From: an uncultured Lachnospiraceae bacterium
GTDB lineage: Bacteria > Bacillota_A > Clostridia > Lachnospirales > Lachnospiraceae
Direction of reading: 5' to 3'
Length of the DNA: 64,000 nucleotides
NCBI GenBank assembly: GCA_947564305.1
Contig: CANOBT010000010.1
Span: 3,853-67,852, forward strand
This document shows positions 3,857 to 62,820 of the stretch, one piece after another (positions within the stretch are counted from its first letter, which is position 1; each line of letters opens with the position of its first letter). The notes below the pieces were generated by a model that had not been told where the DNA came from, did no database searches, and was given only the letters and a program-made list of their open reading frames with translations. The translations under genes were made by a program, and so were the position numbers.

Positions 3857-5287
3857 ATGAGTGAATTTGAGAAGGTTCAGACGGGCTTGGGAGAAGAGTG
3901 CGGCGTGTTCGGTGCTTATGATATGGAAGGCGGCGACGTGGCTGCTTCCGTGTATTATGGATTGTTTGCACTGCAGCACAGAGGACAGGAGAGCTGTGGA
4001 ATTGCGGTGACAGATACCAATGGGCAGCGAAGGGTTTTGTCAAAAAAAGGTCTTGGCCATGTGGATGATGTGTTTGATGAGGAAACGCTGCAGGGATTAA
4101 AAGGAAATTTGGGCGTAGGACATGTTCGTTATTCCACGGCGGGTGGTACCTGCGTGGAGAACGCGCAGCCGCTTGTTATCAATTATGTGAAGGGAACCCT
4201 GGCAATCGCGCATAATGGGAATCTGGTGAATGCCATAGAACTGAGAAAAGAGTTGGAATATACGGGGGCAATTTTCCAGACAACTATTGATTCTGAGGTG
4301 ATTGCATATCATATTGCACGCGAGCGTTTGAATGTAAGAAAAGCAGAGGATGCAGTCAAGAATGCGATGAAGAAGATTGAGGGAGCCTATGCGTTGGTGG
4401 TCAGCAGTCCACGTAAAATGATTGGAGCACGCGACCCAAGAGGTCTGAAACCACTGTGTATCGGAAAGAGGGATAATACCTGGTTTCTGGCATCTGAAAG
4501 CTGTGCGATTGCGGCGATAGGGGCAGAATTTGTTCGAGATGTTCGTCCGGGAGAGGTGGTCAGCTTTACGAAAGATGGAGTGAGTTCTGACATGAGTATG
4601 GCTGTTTCTCCTGAAAAGCAGACCAGATGTATTTTTGAATACATTTATTTTGCCCGCACTGACAGCACTTTGGATGGGGTCAATGTGTATCATGCCAGGA
4701 TTGCAGCGGGAAAAGCGTTGGCAAACTCTTATCCGGTGGAGGCAGACTTGGTGGTTGGAGTGCCGGATTCCGGACTGGTGGCGGCAAAAGGCTACTCGGA
4801 GCAGTCAGGAATTCCCTATGGCATGGCATTCCACAAGAACAGTTATGTGGGACGCACCTTTATCAAGCCAAAGCAGAGCGACAGGGAATCCAGTGTGAAG
4901 ATTAAACTGAACGTCATTTCTGAGGTAGTAAAAGGGAAACGAATTATCATGGTAGATGATTCCATTGTGAGGGGTACGACCTGCGCAAACATCATTAAAA
5001 TGCTGAAAAAGGCAGGCGCAACGGAGGTTCATGTACGGATTAGTTCACCGCCCTTTTTGTATCCCTGCTATTTTGGAACGGATGTTCCGTCGGATGACCA
5101 GCTGATTGCCCATTCCCACACGACCGAACAGATTCGGGAAATGATAGGGGCGGATTCCCTGGGATATATGGAAGTGGCAAAATTAAAAGAGATGGTTGGG
5201 AATCTGGGGTACTGTGATGCCTGCTTTACAGGGCGTTATCCTATGAAAGTTCCGGATCATGATATCAGCCATGCGTTTGAATTGTAA
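3857..5287 (+). CDS. purF: Amidophosphoribosyltransferase
   Basis: First committed enzyme of purine synthesis: glutamine plus PRPP gives 5-phosphoribosylamine. The N-terminal nucleophile glutaminase domain is exposed by removal of a short propeptide; here the catalytic cysteine is residue 15 in EECGVFGAYD, as in the Bacillus-type enzyme. The PRPP site IIMVDDSIVRGTT is intact. Cysteines in RCIFEYIYFARTDS, FLYPCYFG and YCDACFTG match the four ligands of the structural iron-sulfur cluster of the Bacillus-type enzyme, which makes it oxygen sensitive. I start at 3857 because GGAGG (3843-3847) sits nine bases upstream; an in-frame ATG at 3824 overlaps the promoter. purB follows about 100 bases later but has its own leader element. 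Confidence 0.96.
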   Translation: MSEFEKVQTGLGEECGVFGAYDMEGGDVAASVYYGLFALQHRGQESCGIAVTDTNGQRRVLSKKGLGHVDDVFDEETLQGLKGNLGVGHVRYSTAGGTCVENAQPLVINYVKGTLAIAHNGNLVNAIELRKELEYTGAIFQTTIDSEVIAYHIARERLNVRKAEDAVKNAMKKIEGAYALVVSSPRKMIGARDPRGLKPLCIGKRDNTWFLASESCAIAAIGAEFVRDVRPGEVVSFTKDGVSSDMSMAVSPEKQTRCIFEYIYFARTDSTLDGVNVYHARIAAGKALANSYPVEADLVVGVPDSGLVAAKGYSEQSGIPYGMAFHKNSYVGRTFIKPKQSDRESSVKIKLNVISEVVKGKRIIMVDDSIVRGTTCANIIKMLKKAGATEVHVRISSPPFLYPCYFGTDVPSDDQLIAHSHTTEQIREMIGADSLGYMEVAKLKEMVGNLGYCDACFTGRYPMKVPDHDISHAFEL

Positions 5288-5325
5288 GGTTTCTAAAAAC
5301 GGTAGTGGAAGTATTAGCTGAAAAA

Positions 5326-5381
5326 AGATGCGGCAAGCAGACAGTCACTGGCTTTGCAGGTGATTACAAAATTTAGGGAGG
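5326..5381 (+). promoter_or_regulatory. Conserved leader element (purB copy)
   Basis: The block GATGCGGCAAGCAGACAGTC opens the element. A hairpin formed by AGTCAC and GTGATT follows, then ACAAAATTTA and the ribosome site GGGAGG (5376-5381). The same order and spacing occur before nrdD (29490) and purA (32678). It is most likely an RNA element that includes the ribosome site. I do not recognise it as a known riboswitch class. A translated extension from an in-frame TTG at 5354 would run through it, which is a reason to reject that start. Confidence 0.6.
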
Positions 5382-5389
5382 TTACGGGT

Positions 5390-6823
5390 ATGAGTATGGA
5401 TCGTTATGTAAGTCCTCTTTCTGAGCGATATGCCAGCAAGGAGATGCAGTATATTTTTTCGCCGGATAAAAAGTTCCGGACATGGAGAAAACTGTGGATT
5501 GCACTGGCAGAGACAGAAAAGGAATTGGGACTGCAGATTACGGAGGAACAGATCGAGGAACTGAAAGCACATGCAGATGACATCAATTATGATGTGGCGA
5601 AGGAGCGGGAAAAGATTGTCCGGCATGATGTGATGTCCCATGTCTATGCTTACGGAGTACAGTGTCCGAAGGCAAAAGGGATCATTCATCTTGGAGCTAC
5701 CTCCTGTTATGTAGGGGACAACACAGATATAATCATCATGTCTGAGGCATTGAAACTGGTGAGGAAAAAACTGCTGAATGTGATTGCGGAACTGGCGGAA
5801 TTTGCAAAAAATCAGAAAGCACAGCCGACCCTGGCTTTTACCCATTTCCAACCGGCACAGCCGACGACTGTAGGAAAAAGAGCGACCCTTTGGATGCAGG
5901 AGTTTGAGATGGATTTAGAGGATCTGGATTATGTGCTGGGAAGCCTGAAATTATTGGGCAGCAAGGGGACCACTGGAACCCAGGCAAGCTTTTTGGAGTT
6001 GTTTGAAGGGAATCAGGAGACCATAGATAAGATTGATCCGATGATTGCAGAAAAGATGGGATTTGAAGCCTGCTATCCGGTATCCGGGCAGACCTATTCC
6101 AGAAAGGTTGACACACGGGTGTTGAATGTGCTTGCCGGGATTGCTGCCAGTGCCCATAAATTTTCTAATGATATCCGATTGCTGCAGCATTTAAAAGAGG
6201 TAGAAGAACCTTTTGAAAAGAGCCAGATTGGTTCCTCTGCTATGGCTTACAAGCGTAATCCTATGCGCAGTGAAAGGATTGCGTCTCTATCCCGCTATGT
6301 AATGATCAATGCCCTGAATCCGGCAGTTACCTCTGCTGCACAGTGGTTTGAACGTACGTTGGACGATTCGGCGAATAAGCGTCTGAGTGTGCCGGAAGGC
6401 TTTTTAGCGGTTGATGGAATTCTGGATTTGTGCCTGAATGTAGTAGATGGGCTTGTCGTTTATCCGAAGGTGATTGAAAAACGGCTGATGTCCGAACTTC
6501 CGTTTATGGCCACGGAGAATATCATGATGGATGCAGTGAAGGCCGGAGGAGACCGGCAGGAGCTGCATGAGAGGATTCGAGAACTGTCCATGGAGGCAGG
6601 AAGAAACGTCAAAGAAAAAGGAATGGATAATAATCTTCTGGAATTAATTGCAGAGGACCCGGCGTTTAATCTGACTCTGGAGGAACTCCAGAAGACTATG
6701 GAGCCTGACAGATATGTAGGTCGTGCCAAAGAGCAGGTGGAAGCATATTTGACACAGGTGATTGAGCCGCTTTTGGAAAAAAATAAAGAATATCTCGGTA
6801 TGAAATCGGAGATTAACGTATAA
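5390..6823 (+). CDS. purB: Adenylosuccinate lyase
   Basis: Splits SAICAR to AICAR and adenylosuccinate to AMP, each time releasing fumarate, so it acts twice in purine synthesis. The fumarase/aspartase superfamily signature is present as SSAMAYKRNPMRSERI, with the catalytic serine in this flexible loop; TSCYVGDNTD and the TGTQASFLELF segment are also typical. The protein is 477 residues, the longer form of the family found in many Clostridia. GGGAGG at 5376-5381 is eight bases from the chosen ATG; a second ATG two codons later is also possible. A two-tier terminator follows. Confidence 0.95.
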   Translation: MSMDRYVSPLSERYASKEMQYIFSPDKKFRTWRKLWIALAETEKELGLQITEEQIEELKAHADDINYDVAKEREKIVRHDVMSHVYAYGVQCPKAKGIIHLGATSCYVGDNTDIIIMSEALKLVRKKLLNVIAELAEFAKNQKAQPTLAFTHFQPAQPTTVGKRATLWMQEFEMDLEDLDYVLGSLKLLGSKGTTGTQASFLELFEGNQETIDKIDPMIAEKMGFEACYPVSGQTYSRKVDTRVLNVLAGIAASAHKFSNDIRLLQHLKEVEEPFEKSQIGSSAMAYKRNPMRSERIASLSRYVMINALNPAVTSAAQWFERTLDDSANKRLSVPEGFLAVDGILDLCLNVVDGLVVYPKVIEKRLMSELPFMATENIMMDAVKAGGDRQELHERIRELSMEAGRNVKEKGMDNNLLELIAEDPAFNLTLEELQKTMEPDRYVGRAKEQVEAYLTQVIEPLLEKNKEYLGMKSEINV

Positions 6824-12917: not shown

Positions 12918-12960
12918 TACAAGCAGGCAGTATTATGAAGCGAGATTACACAGGCAGGTA
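12918..12960 (+). promoter_or_regulatory. Possible degenerate copy of the purB/nrdD/purA leader element
   Basis: CAAGCAGGCAGT, a short interval, then GAGATTACACAGGCAGG repeats the order seen in the three conserved leaders. The hairpin pairing is poor here, and the start codon of the next gene is about 60 bases further on rather than next to the element. It could be a decayed or variant copy, or chance. Confidence 0.25.
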
Positions 12961-15706: not shown

Positions 15707-15735
15707 GAAAAATCTGCTGGACATGCAAGATTGTT

Positions 15736-15761
15736 AAGGCAGCGGCCGAAGTCGCTGCTTT
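15736..15761 (+). terminator. Stable stem-loop between scfA and scfB
   Basis: AAGGCAGCG (15736-15744) pairs with CGCTGCTTT (15753-15761), extended inward to a CGAA tetraloop, about 11 bp in all. It has only a short T-run, so it may act as a 3' stabiliser or partial terminator for the peptide message. Confidence 0.55.
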
Positions 15762-15786
15762 ATCCTTGTGTAAACATTTATACTGG

Positions 15787-15811
15787 AAGCATCATGAATC
15801 AGATGCTTTTT
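15787..15811 (+). terminator. Intrinsic-terminator-like hairpin just before scfB
   Basis: AAGCATC (15787-15793) pairs with GATGCTT (15802-15808) and runs into TTTTT. It ends only about 20 bases before the scfB start, so read-through is needed to make the maturase. Confidence 0.6.
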
Positions 15812-15829
15812 GAAAGTGAGGAGTATCCA

Positions 15830-17227
15830 GTGATACATCAATATCAGAATAATGGATATAACATTGTCCTTGATGTGAACAGCGGGTCTGTTCATGTTGT
15901 GGACAAGATTGCATATGATGTCATTGCCTGTCTGGAAAGGCAGAACCCTTGCCATACGCCTGAAACGTTGAGAAGGCAGGAGACGTTGAATGAGCTGGTC
16001 AGGATACTTTCGGAATATCCGAGTCAGGAACTGGAAGAAGTCTTAGAGGCAGTTTTGGAACTCGCGGAGTCAGGACGGCTGTTCGTACAGGATGATTATG
16101 AAGATTATATTGGTGAAGTGAAGCAGCGTAAGACAGTAGTGAAGGCACTGTGTCTGCATATTGCGCACGACTGTAACCTTGCCTGCAGATATTGTTTTGC
16201 AGAAGAAGGGGAGTACCATGGAAGACGTGCATTGATGTCCTATGAAGTGGGAAAGAAGGCATTAGATTTTCTGATAGCCAATTCTGGAAATCGGCGGAAT
16301 CTGGAAGTGGACTTCTTTGGTGGAGAGCCGTTGATGAACTGGCAGACCGTGAAAGATTTGGTGGCTTACGGCAGAGGGCTGGAAGAGCAGTATGGCAAGC
16401 ATTTCCGCTTTACATTGACGACCAATGGGGTATTATTAAATGATGAAGTGCAGGATTTTGTCAATCGGGAGATGGATAATGTTGTCTTAAGTCTTGATGG
16501 AAGGAAGGAAGTCAATGACAGAATGCGGCCGTTTAGAAATGGTAAGGGCAGCTACGATTTGATTGTGCCGAAATTCCGGAAACTGGCAGACAGCCGTAAT
16601 CAGGAGAAATACTATATCCGTGGGACATTTACCCGTCAGAATCTGGATTTTTCGAAGGATGTGCTGCATTTTGTGGATTTGGGATTTCAGCAGATTTCCA
16701 TTGAGCCGGTTGTCGGTGAAGCAGAAGATCCATATGCAATTCAGGAGAAAGATTTGCCACAGATTTTTGAAGAATATGATACGCTGGCAAAGACCATTGT
16801 GGAATATGAGAAAAAAGGGAAGGGATTTAATTTCTTCCATTTCATGATAGATTTGGAGGGCGGTCCATGCGTAGCGAAGAGACTGTCCGGCTGTGGTTCC
16901 GGCACAGAATACCTTGCGGTAACGCCATGGGGAGATTTGTATCCCTGCCATCAGTTTGTGGGGGATGAAAAGTTTCTGATGGGAAATGTGGAACAAGGAA
17001 TCATAAGAACGGAAATAGCAGAGGAATTCCGAAGCTGCAGTATTTATTCGAAGGAGAAATGCAGGAATTGTTTTGCGAAGTTTTACTGCAGCGGTGGCTG
17101 TATGGCAAATTCCTACAAGTTCCATCATACAATCCATGACACTTATGATATCAGTTGTGAGATGGAGAGAAAGCGTGTGGAATGTGCGATTATGATACAG
17201 GCTGCACTGCGGGATAATGAGGAATGA
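15830..17227 (+). CDS. scfB: SCIFF maturase, radical SAM/SPASM enzyme
   Basis: Installs the thioether in the SCIFF peptide. The N-terminal RiPP-recognition domain (about residues 1-90, HQYQNNGYNIVLDVNSGSVH) binds the leader. The radical SAM core carries CNLACRYC, ligating the cluster that cleaves S-adenosylmethionine, and DFFGGEPLMNW. The C-terminal SPASM region holds the auxiliary-cluster cysteines (CVAKRLSGCGSG, DLYPCHQ, CRNCFAKFYCSGGC). I start at GTG 15830: GTGAGGAG lies just upstream and the protein then opens with the family's usual first residues. An ATG at 15794 falls inside the loop of the hairpin. Expected mature length is 465 residues, as in relatives. Confidence 0.93.
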   Translation: MIHQYQNNGYNIVLDVNSGSVHVVDKIAYDVIACLERQNPCHTPETLRRQETLNELVRILSEYPSQELEEVLEAVLELAESGRLFVQDDYEDYIGEVKQRKTVVKALCLHIAHDCNLACRYCFAEEGEYHGRRALMSYEVGKKALDFLIANSGNRRNLEVDFFGGEPLMNWQTVKDLVAYGRGLEEQYGKHFRFTLTTNGVLLNDEVQDFVNREMDNVVLSLDGRKEVNDRMRPFRNGKGSYDLIVPKFRKLADSRNQEKYYIRGTFTRQNLDFSKDVLHFVDLGFQQISIEPVVGEAEDPYAIQEKDLPQIFEEYDTLAKTIVEYEKKGKGFNFFHFMIDLEGGPCVAKRLSGCGSGTEYLAVTPWGDLYPCHQFVGDEKFLMGNVEQGIIRTEIAEEFRSCSIYSKEKCRNCFAKFYCSGGCMANSYKFHHTIHDTYDISCEMERKRVECAIMIQAALRDNEE

Positions 17228-27497: not shown

Positions 27498-29300
27498 ATG
27501 GCAGAGTCTATGAGAGGCTTACACCGCACCCATCGCTGCGGTGAACTTTCGGTGGAGAATATCGGAGAACAGGTTACCGTTATGGGATGGGTTCAGAAGA
27601 ACAGAAATAAGGGTGGACTTGTCTTTGTGGATGTGAGAGACCGTTCCGGTATTATTCAGGTTGTTTTTGAGGAAGGACAGGCGGAGACAGAGTTGATTGA
27701 AAAGGCGGCCGGACTGCGTTCTGAATATGTGGTTGCAGTTGTGGGAGATGTAAAAAAGCGTTCCGGCGCGGTCAATCCCAACATAGCTACCGGGGAAATC
27801 GAGGTCATTCCGAAAGAACTGCGTATTCTTTCGGAGTCTGCGACTCCTCCGTTTCCGATTGAGGAAAATTCCAAGACAAAAGAGGAATTGCGCTTGAAAT
27901 ACCGTTATTTGGATTTGAGAAGACCGGATTTGCAAAAGAATCTCATGATGCGAAGCAAGGTGGCGACATTGACGCGTCAGTTCTTGGCAGAGGAGGGATT
28001 TTTAGAGATTGAGACACCAATTTTAGGCAAGAGTACGCCGGAAGGGGCGAGAGATTATCTGGTTCCAAGCCGTATCCATCCGGGCAGCTTCTATGGTCTG
28101 CCGCAGTCTCCACAGCTTTTTAAACAGCTTTTAATGTGCTCTGGTTATGACCGTTATTTCCAGATTGCAAAGTGTTTCCGGGATGAGGACCTGCGTGCGG
28201 ACAGACAGCCGGAGTTTACTCAGATTGATATGGAGCTTTCTTTTGTAGATGTGGATGACGTAATTGATATCAACGAGCGTTTGATTGCCAAGCTGTTCCG
28301 GGAGGTATTGAATGTAGAGGTTCCGCTGCCGATTCCAAGAATGTCCTGGCAGGAGGCGATGGACCGTTACGGTTCCGATAAGCCGGATACCCGTTTTGGA
28401 ATGGAACTGGTGAATGTGACAGAGGTTGTAAAGGACTTTGAATTTGTTGTGTTCAAAGGGGCTGTTGAAAACGGTGGGACGGTCCGTGGAATCAATGCCA
28501 AGGGACAGGGAAGCATGCCAAGGAAGAAAATTGATAAACTGGTAAGCTTTGCAAAGGACTATGGTGCAAAGGGACTGGCTTATATTGCGATACAGGAAGA
28601 TGGCAGTGCAAAATCTTCTTTCGCGAAGTTTATGACCGAGGAACAGATGAAGAGCCTGATTGCAGCAATGTCAGGAGAAGCCGGTGATCTTCTGTTATTT
28701 GCGGCAGATAAAAACAAAGTTGTATGGGATGTGCTTGGTGCGCTTCGTGTGGAGCTTGCCAAGCAAATGGAGCTTTTGGATAAAAATGAGTATAAATTCC
28801 TTTGGATTACAGAGTTCCCGCTGTTGGAATGGAGCGAGGAGCAGGGACGCTATACGGCGATGCATCATCCATTTACTATGCCTATGGAAGAAGACCTGCC
28901 ATTTATAGATTCTGATCCGGGAAGGGTTCGTGCCAAAGCATATGACATTACGTTAAATGGAAATGAAGTGGGCGGAGGAAGCATCCGTATTTTTCAGGAT
29001 GACATTCAAGAGAAAATGTTTGAGGTGCTTGGATTTACAAAGGAGCAGGCTTACAGCCAGTTTGGCTTTTTATTGGATGCGTTTAAGTATGGTGTACCGC
29101 CTCACGCAGGATTGGCCTATGGATTGGACCGCCTGGTGATGCTGATGGCAAAAGAAGACAGCATCCGGGATGTGATCGCATTCCCTAAGATTAAGGATGC
29201 TTCCTGCCTGATGACGGACGCTCCAGGAGTTGTGGATGAAAAACAGCTTCATGAATTAGGATTGGAATTACATGCCGAAGAGAATACTTCCGACGAGTAA
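27498..29300 (+). CDS. aspS: Aspartate--tRNA ligase
   Basis: Class II synthetase that charges tRNA-Asp (bacterial type). An N-terminal OB-fold anticodon domain (VTVMGWVQKNRNKGG...FVDVRDRSG) is followed by the catalytic core: YRYLDLRRP, FLEIETPILGKSTPEGARDY (motif 1), FRDEDLRADRQPEFTQID (motif 2), the inserted GAD domain near residues 290-410, and GLAYGLDRLVMLM (motif 3). I start at 27498: GCAGGAG ends seven bases upstream, whereas the ATG at 27492 is too close and the one at 27474 lies inside hisS. 600 residues. Confidence 0.95.
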   Translation: MAESMRGLHRTHRCGELSVENIGEQVTVMGWVQKNRNKGGLVFVDVRDRSGIIQVVFEEGQAETELIEKAAGLRSEYVVAVVGDVKKRSGAVNPNIATGEIEVIPKELRILSESATPPFPIEENSKTKEELRLKYRYLDLRRPDLQKNLMMRSKVATLTRQFLAEEGFLEIETPILGKSTPEGARDYLVPSRIHPGSFYGLPQSPQLFKQLLMCSGYDRYFQIAKCFRDEDLRADRQPEFTQIDMELSFVDVDDVIDINERLIAKLFREVLNVEVPLPIPRMSWQEAMDRYGSDKPDTRFGMELVNVTEVVKDFEFVVFKGAVENGGTVRGINAKGQGSMPRKKIDKLVSFAKDYGAKGLAYIAIQEDGSAKSSFAKFMTEEQMKSLIAAMSGEAGDLLLFAADKNKVVWDVLGALRVELAKQMELLDKNEYKFLWITEFPLLEWSEEQGRYTAMHHPFTMPMEEDLPFIDSDPGRVRAKAYDITLNGNEVGGGSIRIFQDDIQEKMFEVLGFTKEQAYSQFGFLLDAFKYGVPPHAGLAYGLDRLVMLMAKEDSIRDVIAFPKIKDASCLMTDAPGVVDEKQLHELGLELHAEENTSDE

Positions 29301-29370
29301 CTGTATCATATAAAAATATTCTGTTAAAATAAATAAGGATTATGCATTTATATTTTGTACAAATTATAGG

Positions 29371-29412
29371 TTGACTTGATAGAAGGTGAAGTGGTAAACT
29401 TTTAGTTACCAC
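29371..29412 (+). promoter_or_regulatory. Promoter of nrdD-nrdG-dut with overlapping palindrome
   Basis: TTGACT (29371-29376), an 18-base spacer and the extended -10 TGGTAAACT (TAAACT at 29395-29400). A perfect inverted repeat GTGGTAA-N8-TTACCAC (29391-29412) covers the -10 box and start region, the position of a repressor operator. It does not look like a good NrdR box. The leader to the nrdD ATG would be about 150 bases and holds the conserved element. Confidence 0.6.
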
Positions 29413-29489
29413 CCACTTTATCTTGTGGAATATGTCTGATTACACATACAAAATATAGAGGGCGAATGGACATAAGATACCGTATGGCA

Positions 29490-29549
29490 AGAGATGCGGG
29501 TAAGCAGGCAATCAATTTGCGAAGCAGATTGGTTACAAATGGCAGGAGG
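29490..29549 (+). promoter_or_regulatory. Conserved leader element (nrdD copy)
   Basis: AGATGCGGGTAAGCAGGCAA, then a hairpin made by AATCA and TGGTT, then ACAAATGG and the ribosome site CAGGAGG. Compared with the purA copy, the stem changes G-U to A-U and U-A to U-G, both compatible with pairing. See also 5326 and 32678. Confidence 0.6.
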
Positions 29550-29556
29550 TTAATAT

Positions 29557-31677
29557 ATGGTCAGTGTAATAAAAAAAGATGGCACCAGAGAAGACTTTAA
29601 TGTACAGAAGGTGGTTGTGGCAGTGAATAAATCTGCGTACAGGGCATTGGTGACATTTACGGAAGAGGAGTTGGATTTTATCTGCAGATTCGTAGAGGAA
29701 CGTGTGAAGAAGATGCATGTTACGGAGATTCGGATTGCGGAGATGCATAATGTGGTAGAGAGTGCGCTCGAAGCAGTGAATCCGGCGGTTGCGAAGAGCT
29801 ATAAGGATTACCGGAATTACAAGCAGGATTTTGTACAGATGCTGGATGAAGTGTATAAAAAGAGCCAGTCTATCATGTATATAGGAGATAAGGAAAACAG
29901 TAATACGGACAGTGCACTGGTGTCTACCAAGCGTAGTCTGATTTTTAATGAGCTGAATAAGGAATTGTATAAAAAATTCTTTTTAACAGTGGAGGAGATT
30001 CAGGCAATCCGGGACGGTTATATTTATATCCATGACATGTCTGCAAGGCGGGATACGATGAACTGCTGTCTGTTTGATGTGCAGAGTGTATTAAGCGGCG
30101 GATTTGAGATGGGGAATCTCTGGTATAATGAGCCGAAGACACTGGATACGGCGTTTGATGTGATTGGGGATATTGTTTTGAGCGCGGCGAGCCAGCAGTA
30201 CGGTGGCTTTACGGTGCCAAGTGTGGACGAAATCCTGGAGCCATACGCAGAAAAATCTCACAAGCGTCTGCTTCAAAAATATAGAGATTTGGGGCTTGAC
30301 GAGGAAAAAGTCCAGGAAGTGGCATGGAAGGACTTGGAGAAAGAGATGGAGCAGGGTTTCCAGGGATGGGAGTATAAGTTCAATTCCGTATCTTCCAGCC
30401 GGGGGGATTATCCTTTTATTACTGTGACCGCAGGGACACGTACCAGTGAATATGGGAAGCTTGTGACGAAGACAATGTTGGAAGTACGCAAGAAGGGACA
30501 GGGCAAGGTAGGCCACAAAAAGCCGGTACTGTTTCCGAAGATTGTGTTCCTGTATGATGAAAACCTGCACGGCCCTGGTGGCCCGTTGGAGGATGTATTT
30601 GAGGCAGGGATTGAATGTTCCAGCAAGACGATGTATCCGGATTGGCTGAGTCTGACCGGAGAAGGCTATGTGCCGAGTATGTACAAAAAGTACGGTAAGA
30701 TTATCAGCCCTATGGGCTGCCGGGCATTTTTATCTCCATGGTACGAGCGGGGCGGCATTGAGCCGGCAGACGAGGAGGATACCCCAGTTTTTGTGGGAAG
30801 ATTTAACATCGGTGCAATCAGCCTGCATCTTCCGATGATTCTGGCGAAATCCAGGCAGGAAAGCAGGCCTTTCCATGAGGAGCTGGATTATTATCTGAAC
30901 TTGATCCGCAAGCTCCACCAGAGAACTTATGACTATCTGGGAGAGATGAAAGCGTCTACGAATCCGCTGGCTTATTGCGAAGGCGGATTTTACGGCGGAC
31001 ATCTGGGATTATATGATAAAATTAAGCCGCTGCTGAAATCAGCTACCGCATCTTTTGGAATCACGGCATTGAATGAGCTGCAGCAGCTCTATAATAAGAA
31101 ATCAATTGCAGAGGATGGGGAATTCGCGTTGGAAACCTTGCAGTATATCAATGACCGTATCAATGAATTTAAGAAAGAGGACGGACATCTTTATGCGATT
31201 TACGGGACTCCGGCGGAGAACCTGTGCGGCGTGCAGGTGCATCAGTTCCGGAAGAAATATGGAATTATAGAAAATGTATCTGACCGCGAGTATGTGAGCA
31301 ACAGCTTTCATTGTCATGTGAGCGAGGAAATTACTCCAATTGAAAAGCAGAATCTGGAAGGACGTTTCTGGAATCTGAGCAATGGCGGAAAGATTCAGTA
31401 TGTAAAATATCCGGTCAGCTACAATAAAGAGGCAATCCGGGCACTGGTCAGGAGAGCGATGAGAAAGGGATATTATGAAGGTGTAAATCTGTCCTTGTCT
31501 TATTGTGATGACTGTGGTCATGAGGAATTGAATATGGATGTGTGTCCGGTATGCGGCAGCAAGAATCTGACGAAGATTGACAGGATGAATGGGTATCTGT
31601 CCTACTCACGGGTAAAGGGTGATACCAGACTCAATGATGCCAAGATGGCAGAAATCGCAGAAAGGAAAAGTATGTAA
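29557..31677 (+). CDS. nrdD: Anaerobic ribonucleoside-triphosphate reductase
   Basis: Class III glycyl-radical enzyme that makes deoxyribonucleotides without oxygen. An N-terminal ATP-cone (about residues 1-90, VIKKDGTREDFNVQKVVVAV) senses ATP/dATP. The ten-stranded barrel follows. The C-terminal zinc site is formed by two CxxC pairs in SYCDDCGHEELNMDVCPVCG, and the radical glycine is in RMNGYLSYSR, near residue 680. 706 residues, normal. CAGGAGG precedes the ATG. It is followed three bases later by its activase and then by a dUTPase-like gene. Confidence 0.95.
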   Translation: MVSVIKKDGTREDFNVQKVVVAVNKSAYRALVTFTEEELDFICRFVEERVKKMHVTEIRIAEMHNVVESALEAVNPAVAKSYKDYRNYKQDFVQMLDEVYKKSQSIMYIGDKENSNTDSALVSTKRSLIFNELNKELYKKFFLTVEEIQAIRDGYIYIHDMSARRDTMNCCLFDVQSVLSGGFEMGNLWYNEPKTLDTAFDVIGDIVLSAASQQYGGFTVPSVDEILEPYAEKSHKRLLQKYRDLGLDEEKVQEVAWKDLEKEMEQGFQGWEYKFNSVSSSRGDYPFITVTAGTRTSEYGKLVTKTMLEVRKKGQGKVGHKKPVLFPKIVFLYDENLHGPGGPLEDVFEAGIECSSKTMYPDWLSLTGEGYVPSMYKKYGKIISPMGCRAFLSPWYERGGIEPADEEDTPVFVGRFNIGAISLHLPMILAKSRQESRPFHEELDYYLNLIRKLHQRTYDYLGEMKASTNPLAYCEGGFYGGHLGLYDKIKPLLKSATASFGITALNELQQLYNKKSIAEDGEFALETLQYINDRINEFKKEDGHLYAIYGTPAENLCGVQVHQFRKKYGIIENVSDREYVSNSFHCHVSEEITPIEKQNLEGRFWNLSNGGKIQYVKYPVSYNKEAIRALVRRAMRKGYYEGVNLSLSYCDDCGHEELNMDVCPVCGSKNLTKIDRMNGYLSYSRVKGDTRLNDAKMAEIAERKSM

Positions 31678-31679
31678 CC

Positions 31680-32168
31680 ATGCAGTACCATAACATTACG
31701 ACAGACGATATGCTCAATGGCGAAGGCCTCAGGGTGGTATTGTGGGTGGCGGGCTGTTCTCATGCCTGTCCGGGCTGTCATAATCCGGTCACATGGGACC
31801 CGAATGGTGGTTTGGACTTTGATGAGGCTGCAAAGGAAGAGATTTTTGCACAGTTGGATCACAGCTATATTCATGGGATTACCTATAGCGGCGGTGACCC
31901 GCTGTATATGGGGAACCGGGAGGCAATTGCGGCTCTGGCGCGAGAAATCCGTGAAAAGTATCCCAAGAAGACGCAGTGGCTTTATACCGGCTATCTGTGG
32001 GAGGAAATCAAAGGAGAGGAAGTCGTTCCGCTTTTGGATGTTATCGTGGATGGAAGATATATAGAAGCAGAGAAGGATGCGCTCCTTTCCTGGCGTGGAA
32101 GCAGAAACCAACGAGTGATCAATGTACACAAGAGCCTGGAGGCGGGAGAGACAATATGCAGAGAATAG
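31680..32168 (+). CDS. nrdG: Anaerobic ribonucleotide reductase activating protein
   Basis: Radical SAM activase that puts the glycyl radical on NrdD. The cluster-binding motif is CSHACPGC (about residues 26-33), preceded by LNGEGLRVVLWVAG and followed by HNPVTWDPNGG and TYSGGDPL. At 162 residues it is the usual compact form. The start lies three bases after nrdD, which implies translational coupling. Its end overlaps the next gene. Confidence 0.95.
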   Translation: MQYHNITTDDMLNGEGLRVVLWVAGCSHACPGCHNPVTWDPNGGLDFDEAAKEEIFAQLDHSYIHGITYSGGDPLYMGNREAIAALAREIREKYPKKTQWLYTGYLWEEIKGEEVVPLLDVIVDGRYIEAEKDALLSWRGSRNQRVINVHKSLEAGETICRE

Positions 32169-32668
32169 CAAAATTCCATAAAGTTAGTGAGACTCAGTTT
32201 GTCAAGGACTGGAAGGATACCTTTCCGGAATATGAAAACGAGGATATCTTCAAGATTTATCAGGAAATCCGGCTTCCGAAACGGGCTACTGCAGGGTCGG
32301 CCGGATATGATTTCTATGCTCCGATGAAGATAATACTAAAGCCAGGAGAGACGGTAAAGATTCCCACCGGAATCCGGGTGGAGATGGAAAAAAACTGGGT
32401 GCTTCAGTGCTATCCCAGAAGCGGATTAGGATTTAAGTACCGACTGCAGATGAACAATACGGTTGGGATTATCGACAGTGATTATTTTTTTTCAGACAAT
32501 GAAGGACATATTTTTGCAAAAATAACCAATGATACAAATGAAGGCAAGACGCTGGAGGTTTCTCAAGGGGAAGGTTTCATGCAGGGGATTTTTACAGAGT
32601 ATGGTATTACTGTAGATGATGACGTGACAGAAGTGCGCAACGGAGGATTTGGGAGTACGACAAAATAA
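32156..32668 (+). CDS. dut: dUTPase-like nucleotidohydrolase
   Basis: Trimeric dUTPase/dCTP deaminase superfamily, 170 residues. Motif 1 ATAGSAGYDFYA, motif 2 CYPRSGLGFK, motif 3 NNTVGIIDSDY and the C-terminal motif 5 NGGFGSTTK can all be seen. dUTPase turns dUTP into dUMP plus pyrophosphate, feeding dTMP synthesis and keeping uracil out of DNA. A first segment of some 30 residues (IAKFHKVSETQFVKDW) is longer than in classical Dut. The ATG at 32156 overlaps nrdG by 13 bases with GGCGGGAGAG upstream; the frame is open further upstream but only as a shadow of nrdG. Its place behind nrdDG fits a role in dNTP balance. Confidence 0.87.
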   Translation: MQRIAKFHKVSETQFVKDWKDTFPEYENEDIFKIYQEIRLPKRATAGSAGYDFYAPMKIILKPGETVKIPTGIRVEMEKNWVLQCYPRSGLGFKYRLQMNNTVGIIDSDYFFSDNEGHIFAKITNDTNEGKTLEVSQGEGFMQGIFTEYGITVDDDVTEVRNGGFGSTTK

Positions 32669-32677
32669 GGAACTATG

Positions 32678-32732
32678 AGAGGGCAAGCAGGCAGTCAATC
32701 AGCATATCAGATTGATTAAAATGGCAGGAGGG
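32678..32732 (+). promoter_or_regulatory. Conserved leader element (purA copy)
   Basis: GGGCAAGCAGGCAGTCAATC begins an 8-bp hairpin (AGTCAATC with GATTGATT, loop AGCATATCA) that leads into AAAATGG and the ribosome site CAGGAGGG. This is the cleanest of the three copies. It lies between dut and purA, where no other promoter was found, so it probably acts on a transcript coming from nrdD or on translation. Confidence 0.6.
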
Positions 32733-32739
32733 TTTGAAA

Positions 32740-34032
32740 ATGGTAAAAGCAGTTGTTGGAGCAAACTGGGGTGATGAAGGTAAGGGAAAGATTACCGATA
32801 TGCTTGGAAAGGAAGCGGATATTATCGTCCGGTTTCAGGGAGGAGCTAATGCAGGGCACACAATCGTAAATGATTATGGAAAGTTTGCATTGCATACTTT
32901 GCCGTCGGGTGTATTTTACAGCCATACCATAAGTGTGATTGGAAATGGAGTCGCACTGGATGTTCCAAGGCTGTTTGAAGAGATTCAATCCATTGTGGAT
33001 CGCGGAGTCCCGGCGCCAAAGATATTGGTGTCTAACCGTGCACAGATGGTCATGTCTTATCATAAGCTGTTAGATGCGTATGAGGAGGAACGTCTTGGAG
33101 GGAAGTCCTTTGGCTCAACCAAGTCGGGAATCGCGCCATTTTACTCAGATAAGTATGCAAAGACAGGGTTCCAGGTCAGTGAGCTTTTTGATGAAGAACT
33201 GCTGAGGGAAAAGGCAGCGCGTGTGGCAGAGCAGAAAAATGTCCTTTTGGAGCATTTATATCATAAGCCATTGATTGACCCTGACAAACTCTATCAAGAG
33301 CTGTTGGAATATAAGAGGATGATTGAACCTTATGTATGTGATGTGTCTTTGTTTTTACACAAGGCATTGAAGGCGGGGAAGGAAATCCTGTTGGAGGGAC
33401 AGCTTGGTTCCTTAAAAGACCCAGATCATGGGATTTATCCGATGGTGACCTCATCCTCTACATTGGCTGCATATGGGGCTATCGGTGCAGGAATTCCGCC
33501 ATATGAGATTAAGAAGATTATTACAGTCAGCAAGGCTTATTCCAGTGCGGTTGGGGCAGGAGCTTTTGTAAGCGAGCTTTTTGGAGAAGAAGCGGAGGAA
33601 CTGAGACGTCGCGGTGGAGACGGTGGTGAATATGGCGCAACGACCGGTCGGCCGAGACGAGTAGGATGGTTTGACTGTGTGGCCTCCAAATATGGATGTA
33701 GGATGCAAGGAACCACAGATGTTGCATTTACCGTATTGGATGTGCTTGGATATCTGGATGAGATTCCAGTCTGTGTGGGCTACGAGATTGACGGAGAGGT
33801 GACAACAGAATTTCCGGTTACTCATTTATTGGACAAGGCAAAACCGGTTTTGGAGACACTGCCTGGATGGAAATGTGATATCCGTGGAATAAGGAAATAT
33901 GAAGAGCTGCCGGAAAATTGCAGGAAGTATATCGAGTTTGTAGAGAAACAGATTGAATATCCGATTACCATGATCAGTAATGGACCAGGAAGAGAGGACA
34001 TTATTTATAGAGAATCTCCATATAAAAAATAA
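32740..34032 (+). CDS. purA: Adenylosuccinate synthetase
   Basis: Couples IMP and aspartate with GTP hydrolysis to give adenylosuccinate, the first step from IMP to AMP; PurB does the second. The phosphate loop GANWGDEGKGK is at residues 8-18, with VRFQGGANAGHTIV next and the GTP-binding NGPGRED near the C-terminus. 430 residues, normal. AGGAGGG lies seven bases before the ATG; an in-frame TTG at 32734 is too close to it. A strong terminator follows. Confidence 0.95.
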   Translation: MVKAVVGANWGDEGKGKITDMLGKEADIIVRFQGGANAGHTIVNDYGKFALHTLPSGVFYSHTISVIGNGVALDVPRLFEEIQSIVDRGVPAPKILVSNRAQMVMSYHKLLDAYEEERLGGKSFGSTKSGIAPFYSDKYAKTGFQVSELFDEELLREKAARVAEQKNVLLEHLYHKPLIDPDKLYQELLEYKRMIEPYVCDVSLFLHKALKAGKEILLEGQLGSLKDPDHGIYPMVTSSSTLAAYGAIGAGIPPYEIKKIITVSKAYSSAVGAGAFVSELFGEEAEELRRRGGDGGEYGATTGRPRRVGWFDCVASKYGCRMQGTTDVAFTVLDVLGYLDEIPVCVGYEIDGEVTTEFPVTHLLDKAKPVLETLPGWKCDIRGIRKYEELPENCRKYIEFVEKQIEYPITMISNGPGREDIIYRESPYKK

Positions 34033-39333: not shown

Positions 39334-39406
39334 AGCGACAGACGGGGTTCGAACCCGCGACCCCGACCTTGGCAAGGTCGTACTCTACCAACTGAGCCAC
39401 TGTCGC
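39334..39406 (-). tRNA. tRNA-Gly (anticodon GCC)
   Basis: Read on the minus strand, a 7-bp acceptor stem GCGACAG/CTGTCGC closes a normal cloverleaf. The D-arm is GGCTCAGTTGGTAGAG, the anticodon stem-loop is CGACC-TTGCCAA-GGTCG and the T-arm is GCGGG-TTCGAAC-CCCGT. The anticodon GCC reads GGC and GGU glycine codons. The discriminator is U, as expected for tRNA-Gly. The CCA end is not encoded. Confidence 0.96.
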
Positions 39407-62518: not shown

Positions 62519-62820
62519 AAGAAATATCGCAGAGACATAGAAGAGGAGCAGTAAGGGATGGATGCCTGACAGAGACCTGCCGGTTGGTGCAAGGCAGGAA
62601 GCAGAATTCTCTGAACTCGCCTTGGAGTTCTTCTGTTGAAGCGTACCAGGATAATGGCGCGATAGTAGGCAGAAGCGGGACTTCCCGTTATAGAAGCAAA
62701 GAGTGCATTCAGAGAAATGTCTATGTGAAGAGCACATAGGGAACTGGATGAATAAGAGTGGTACCACGGAAGTTCAAGGCCTTTTCGTCTCTTAATGGAG
62801 ACTGGAAAGGCTTTTTTGTT
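62519..62820 (+). ncRNA. T-box leader of leuS (tRNA-Leu sensing)
   Basis: A long structured leader ending in the T-box sequence AGTGGTACCACGG (about 62757-62769) and then a terminator (AAGGCCTTTTCGTCTC with GAGACTGGAAAGGCTTTTTT, to about 62817). Uncharged tRNA binds the specifier loop with its anticodon and the T-box bulge (TGGT, fitting discriminator A of tRNA-Leu) with its end, and so blocks termination. Within stem I, GAACTCGCC suggests the specifier codon CTC; this is a guess from the sequence. About 100 further bases separate the terminator from leuS. Confidence 0.92.

Follow-up and report, generated by a model that had tools for sequence, protein, structure and literature searches.

A structured element shared by the leaders of purB, nrdD, and purA probably belongs to a dispersed repeat family of one Lachnospiraceae group

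Why should purB, nrdD, and purA, three genes that lie far apart, carry the same short structured element just ahead of their ribosome-binding sites? The question arises in a 64,000-nucleotide stretch of an uncultured Lachnospiraceae bacterium (GenBank assembly GCA_947564305.1, contig CANOBT010000010.1, positions 3,853 to 67,852 of the forward strand), referred to here in its full length as the window. A preliminary description of its sequence had pointed out the element and guessed at an adenine-nucleotide signal. The three leaders probably carry diverged copies of a structured repeat that is dispersed in the genomes of one Lachnospiraceae group. We are fairly confident that the element is a non-autonomous repeat, similar to miniature inverted-repeat transposable elements (MITEs), that has come to lie next to the Shine-Dalgarno (SD) sequence within the leader.

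A covariance model, R1, was built on 21 copies from five other genomes and used no window sequence. At E ≤ 10, R1 finds four matches in the window. The best three are exactly the leaders singled out in the preliminary description, which bears out the shared element, and the fourth is the nrdD hairpin read on the reverse strand. The copies and the genes that follow them are, in order of position:

5326 to 5381, + strand: intercistronic copy of the element between purF and purB, with the parts GATGCGGC, AAGCAGACAGTCA, hairpin 2, and GATTACAAAA (R1 E 0.015)
5390 to 6823, + strand: purB, adenylosuccinate lyase (TIGR00928, 403 bits)
29480 to 29546, + strand: element copy within the 5' leader of nrdD (R1 E 9.2e-9)
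29557 to 31677, + strand: nrdD, anaerobic ribonucleotide reductase (TIGR02487, 571 bits)
32678 to 32732, + strand: element copy between a dut-like open reading frame (ORF) and purA (R1 E 0.0039)
32740 to 34032, + strand: purA, adenylosuccinate synthase (PRK01117, 493 bits)

The corresponding R1 matches span 29438-29546 (nrdD), 32647-32729 (purA), and 5280-5377 (purB), and the scores of the purA and purB leaders are modest. The nrdD copy is the best conserved of the three and consists of hairpin 1 (CCGTAT/ATGCGG), the linker GTAAGCAGG, an 11-bp hairpin 2, and GGTTACA. The purA copy has GGCAAGCAGGCAGTCA, an 8-bp hairpin 2, and GATTAAAA, with GCAGGAGG as the next SD. Across the whole window, the word AAGCAGRCARTCA is found exactly at 5335, 29502, and 32685 only; with up to two mismatches it has 21 matches, compared to 6.4 ± 2.4 in shuffles. 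The element adjoins the ribosome site, as had been claimed: the trailer that follows hairpin 2 is 21 nt (purB, from GATTACA to the ATG at 5390), 19 nt (nrdD), and 19 nt (purA) from the start codon. Hairpin 1 is weak or lost in the purB and purA copies, and within the window the structure is plain at nrdD alone. Relative to shuffles, the z scores of leader folding are -2.5 for nrdD, +1.0 for purB, and +0.2 for purA. Since the purB and purA leaders fold no better than shuffles, they are the weaker copies in the window.

The structure is better judged from the wider family. A full copy is ~110 nt in size and is made of a left hairpin (TAGTGTAAAGTATCGTATG...GATAC), hairpin 1, the linker AGYAGG, hairpin 2, and ACA; the stem of hairpin 1 has a bulge rich in A, and its upper stem is capped. 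Many copies have in common the right end GGTTACA and, on the left, TAGTGTAAAGTATCGTATGAAAAAA.GATACGGG in this or a variant form. From three copies, the preliminary description had claimed that a hairpin is kept by compatible changes, and the claim holds on a larger scale. In an alignment of 91 distinct rows, each of the 19 pairs is altered on both sides at least once, and paired cells make up 97.2%, compared to 78% in shuffled and 28-46% in slid controls. Among the aligned hits, a few are partial or are hairpins read on the reverse strand, and the window rows are those of nrdD and purA, without purB. The alignment was fitted to the model, which introduces a bias toward structure, yet the slid controls are far lower. 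Cells with G-U exceed those with A-C (93 vs. 17 overall; 24 vs. 14 without one dominant column), an excess that favors folding of the sense strand. Judged from these rows, the structure is maintained by compensatory change and the covariation is strong.

Copies with this architecture are here called type I. Type II copies have a short TTGCGC..GCGCAA hairpin 1, are often in tandem, and in many cases end with a TATAAT-like word. The two types were separated by a word rule, and a few short copies assigned to type I may be type II. Tandem type II units of ~62 nt are seen at L059 (G001), L214 (G127), and L298 (G004), where G and L numbers denote genomes and loci; the TATAAT-like ends are a possible right-end promoter. 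By eye, the architecture is also retained in several distant relatives of the element, whose stems on either side of a CAT-N-AAAAT bulge differ.

How widely is the element distributed? A pattern scan for its ordered parts over a collection of genome contigs, blind to genes, yielded 30 matches, of which 11 bear the two-hairpin element. These 11 share TTGCCCGC...GCGGGCAA, AGCAGGC, AATCAATTTTGC..GCAAAATTGGTT (or a shorter stem), ACAAA, an SD, and a start codon, and all are in records of Clostridium sp. or Lachnospiraceae. By eye, every one precedes an SD and a start codon, and seven are in one metagenome-assembled genome (MAG), ahead of different genes. The 19 other matches are without hairpin 1, appear chance-like by eye, and were set aside. 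A core-word search of six such genomes revealed many more copies in G001, G003, and G004. Among 12 genomes of one genus, matches at E ≤ 0.001 number 65 in G004, 52 in G003, 43 in G127, and 21 in G134, and the eight other genomes of that genus have none at this threshold. Across the family, stricter filters were applied and 11 candidates scored per genome; 12 of 397 genomes then have a match at E ≤ 1e-4. Many dispersed, near-identical short copies are therefore present within one genome, as in MITEs.

The placement of copies relative to genes is striking. It was counted over 176 rows in total, these being the listed, mostly best-scoring matches together with the results of the core-word search (35 rows in G127, which has 43 matches; 53 in G004, with 65; 33 in G003, with 52; and 14 in G134, with 21). 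Left out were hits covering model positions 43-73 only (L278, cut by a contig end, included) or the reverse strand of the palindrome, the weak hits L173, L175, and L190, second hits in L192, L201, and L203, and the hits L232 155-237 and L044 1261-1343. A gene start was a called start with an SD-like word, a lenient rule: a second copy contains at least one of the called starts (L210), and some called starts are cut by contig ends. In type I (104 rows, 98 loci, seven genomes), a sense start is within 120 nt in 89 rows and within 40 nt in 72, compared to antisense starts in three rows and in none, respectively. Random positions in the same loci, subjected to the same lenient rule, give 23% and 12%. 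The hairpin-2 trailer is 11-27 nt ahead of the start in 76 of the 82 rows measured among the 89 with a sense start, and the commonest spacing is 17-21 nt. Type II rows have a sense start within 120 nt in 34 of 50 cases and within 40 nt in 15, and an antisense start in three. For the left module, which was located by a pattern of its own, 30 rows were fetched; 25 have a sense start no more than 220 nt away and five an antisense one. All 15 rows without exact TTGCCCGC are in sense, and some of them retain a variant or part of hairpin 1. Because it is in sense and just 5' of the SD, the element is expected to be within 5' untranslated or intercistronic mRNA.

Such placement could also follow if the element were a functional RNA copied between genes wherever useful, with its position at the SD being selected. 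A regulatory leader of this kind might be bound by a general RNA-binding factor, serve as a ribosome standby site, or act as a stabilizer. It would account for the near sense-only orientation, the tight spacing, and the excess of G-U over A-C cells. However, deletions that removed both main hairpins persist before genes (L335, L338, L340, and L344), implying the structure is not needed there. In addition, only seven of 79 downstream gene clusters are common to relatives, and related elements of four other lineages are not leaders. We consider a portable leader unlikely.

If the element sensed a metabolite, the genes that follow it should have a steady tie to one pathway, as is seen for riboswitches. 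No such tie was found. The 89 sense rows lead to ~79 downstream gene clusters (including eight proteins of <60 residues), the seven named above being those found in more than one genome, and among 76 distinct downstream proteins no Pfam family is present in more than four. Based on their N-termini, we take these proteins to include enolase, FtsY, ThiI, FabD, SMC, ScpB, DapF, and Dxs, as well as polyphosphate kinase, response regulators, and glycosidases. Three of the 76 are nucleotide-related by eye and are presumably the product of purA, an AzgA-like permease, and a pyrimidine-nucleoside phosphorylase. At the level of sequence, the copies form a family with compensatory structure, sense orientation, tight spacing to the start, and unrelated downstream genes.

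These data bear directly on the guess that an adenine-nucleotide riboswitch or attenuator controls purA, purB, and nrdD. That all three R1 copies in the window precede nucleotide genes, and that purA of G134 also bears a copy, is what such a switch would predict. But copies before so many unrelated genes make an adenine-specific switch unlikely, orthologous purA and nrdD are mostly without the element, and folding at purB and purA does not exceed that of shuffles. Taken with the three nucleotide-related proteins in 76, the adenine signal is extremely improbable, and we abandon it. A search of Lachnospiraceae genomes with a covariance model, proposed earlier as a means to find further nucleotide genes with the element, did uncover many further copies, but few before such genes. 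The preliminary description had also named findings that would speak against it. One of these was obtained, as copies do precede unrelated genes, whereas the others were not: the element covaries, most copies are outside genes (two are inside ORFs), and there is no match to Rfam.

The nrdD leader has other features. At 29372-29470 (+ strand), a promoter-like TTGACT..TAAACT is followed by the stretches CCACTTTATCTTGTGG and ACATACAAAATATAG, and, by eye, the nrdD leaders of G003, G004, G127, and G134 contain similar words. We take the two stretches to resemble NrdR boxes, which would explain control of nrdD by ATP/dATP without the element.

Orthologous sites differ in the presence of the element. 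In the four nearest relatives examined (G003, G004, G127, and G134), nrdD has no element; in the nearest of these, G134, the gene is 96-99% identical. The nrdD copy of the window thus looks lineage-specific. The element is present at purA of G134 (L191; E 7.6e-11), and there is no R1 match at E ≤ 1 at purA of G001, G002, G003, G005, and G127, or at the purA orthologues of 30 family genomes that include G004. These 30 are the best of 112 genomes, out of 120, in which purA was found; 25 of their leaders were read by eye and five starts were not located. An ancestral purA leader was rejected because these 30 best orthologues are without a match. At purB, the copy of G134 is internally deleted, with its left module running directly into GGTTACA; the matches are weak in G127 (E 0.0018) and G004 (E 0.036), and G003 has GGTTACATATA only, a possible remnant of the right end. 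The timing of gain and decay of copies therefore seems to vary from gene to gene, a poor fit to a conserved adenine-sensing leader. Presence and absence at orthologous sites (nrdD, purA, and purB, and the few shared clusters) is, conversely, a feature of MITEs, and the element did not originate from recent gene duplication, in agreement with the preliminary description. The window may hold one more decayed copy:

12921 to 12953, + strand: approximate core word ahead of a glgX-like gene, possible decayed fourth copy

This candidate is uncertain and has no R1 match at E ≤ 10. The glgX-like gene of a relative (L046 of G004) has a full copy of the element in its leader.

Copies are nested inside hairpin loops (L044 and L065 of G001), and tandem copies and internal deletions are also found; all three fit a non-autonomous mobile repeat. 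Comparisons of the sequences thus reveal presence and absence between relatives, nesting, tandem growth, and internal deletion. By eye, copies nested in the hairpin-1 loop of another copy (L044, L065, and L067 of G001, and loci of G076 and G291) form large branched palindromes.

Several observations weigh against a MITE-like repeat. Terminal inverted repeats, identified by eye, are only ~5 nt (TGTAA/TTACA). No target-site duplication is shown, with alignments of empty and filled nrdD and purA sites being too diverged to be clean. No transposase is tied to the element, Y1_Tnp being the one family sought; it was not found in G001 (a draft MAG with 15 type I rows) or G002, and both genomes are possibly incomplete. 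Distant relatives of the element (G035, G076, G291, and G192) are without leader placement, with two of 22 rows in sense and six in antisense. Two G004 copies (L043 1469-1552 and L058 1469-1552) are within ORFs, on the opposite strand. Lastly, a strong sense bias next to the SD is not what a random mobile repeat would usually show and could reflect a selected leader function. The ORFs that host the L043 and L058 copies are 329 and 503 aa in size, and their frame is apparently unbroken.

A different route of mobility is that of repetitive extragenic palindromic (REP) sequences with their REP-associated tyrosine transposase (RAYT), or of IS200/IS605-type repeats, which are moved as single-stranded DNA by a Y1 transposase. 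The GTAG ahead of hairpin 2 in some copies and the nested insertions into hairpin loops are compatible with it. We nonetheless regard this route as very unlikely: in addition to the failure to find Y1_Tnp in G001 and G002, none of the four exact core words tested is present at any of 16 Y1_Tnp loci, hence no RAYT gene flanked by the repeats was found. At L212 (G127 4739900-4744100), two copies separated by 1.8 kb share their flanks and are, by eye, near a transposase-like ORF, and no normal gene start was found after them.

For a MITE-like repeat, we suggest that copies would arrive by transposition-like insertion next to the SD. Once settled they may, given their position, act on the initiation of translation or the decay of mRNA, in a general rather than metabolite-specific manner. 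A bolder version, tentative and in our view rather doubtful, is that of a transposable 5' leader. The mobile element would target, in sense, the stretch just 5' of the SD, provide one structured RNA leader to dozens of unrelated genes, and thereby build an RNA-level regulon by transposition in one clade. Intergenic repeats are usually seen as passengers; here, position relative to the ribosome site is regular and one-sided, implying that either an enzyme targets the SD region or selection keeps mainly leaders. Under either answer, translation control in gut bacteria would be linked to mobile DNA; presence and absence between relatives are ready natural experiments. Most interesting is why so many copies are in sense at a near-constant distance from the start codon.

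Does the element correspond to a known system? The preliminary description had called it unrecognized, and it matches no Rfam family. At gathering score, Rfam 15 reports only two features in the whole window, both away from the element, a T-box leader (62529-62795, + strand, 125.7 bits) and a tRNA gene (39334-39406, - strand), and only one tRNA across nine element loci. In a permissive scan of 29200-32900 the best overlap is IS009, with 13.6 bits relative to a threshold of 117. A permissive scan of five loci gives a sub-threshold hit to anti-hemB (Burkholderia RNA 7), with 23.8 bits relative to 49.5, at L252 1542-1624 (G281), where it overlaps a distant copy. Identity with an Rfam leader family was rejected because none reaches gathering score; the element is like these families in being a structured leader on the sense strand but is without their gene specificity. 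The window also encodes a SCIFF peptide maturase (radical SAM; 15731-17227, + strand, 796 bits).

In a search of open-access literature, no description of this repeat family was found, and the nearest likenesses are among repeats of other bacteria. REP sequences and REPINs have in common with it that they are dispersed palindromes, some with a GTAG-like tag, and differ in that the present element has direct twin hairpins, a leader position, and no RAYT partner found. BOX elements of Streptococcus pneumoniae are modular, with repeatable internal units and a stable RNA structure. The present element is likewise modular and structured, but its sequence and architecture differ from those of BOX, the comparison being by description. 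We know of no near-exclusive sense placement adjacent to the SD for BOX. Correia elements of Neisseria are short structured repeats located mostly immediately upstream of genes, and the repeat described here is likewise short, structured, and upstream of genes, in a likeness of form and position rather than of compared sequences (PMC10969869). According to the same source, Correia subtypes carry strong promoters, whereas type I copies end too near the SD for a promoter at their right end (PMC10969869). Because Correia elements also sit mostly upstream of genes, this kind of repeat is already known, and the present variant appears to be new.

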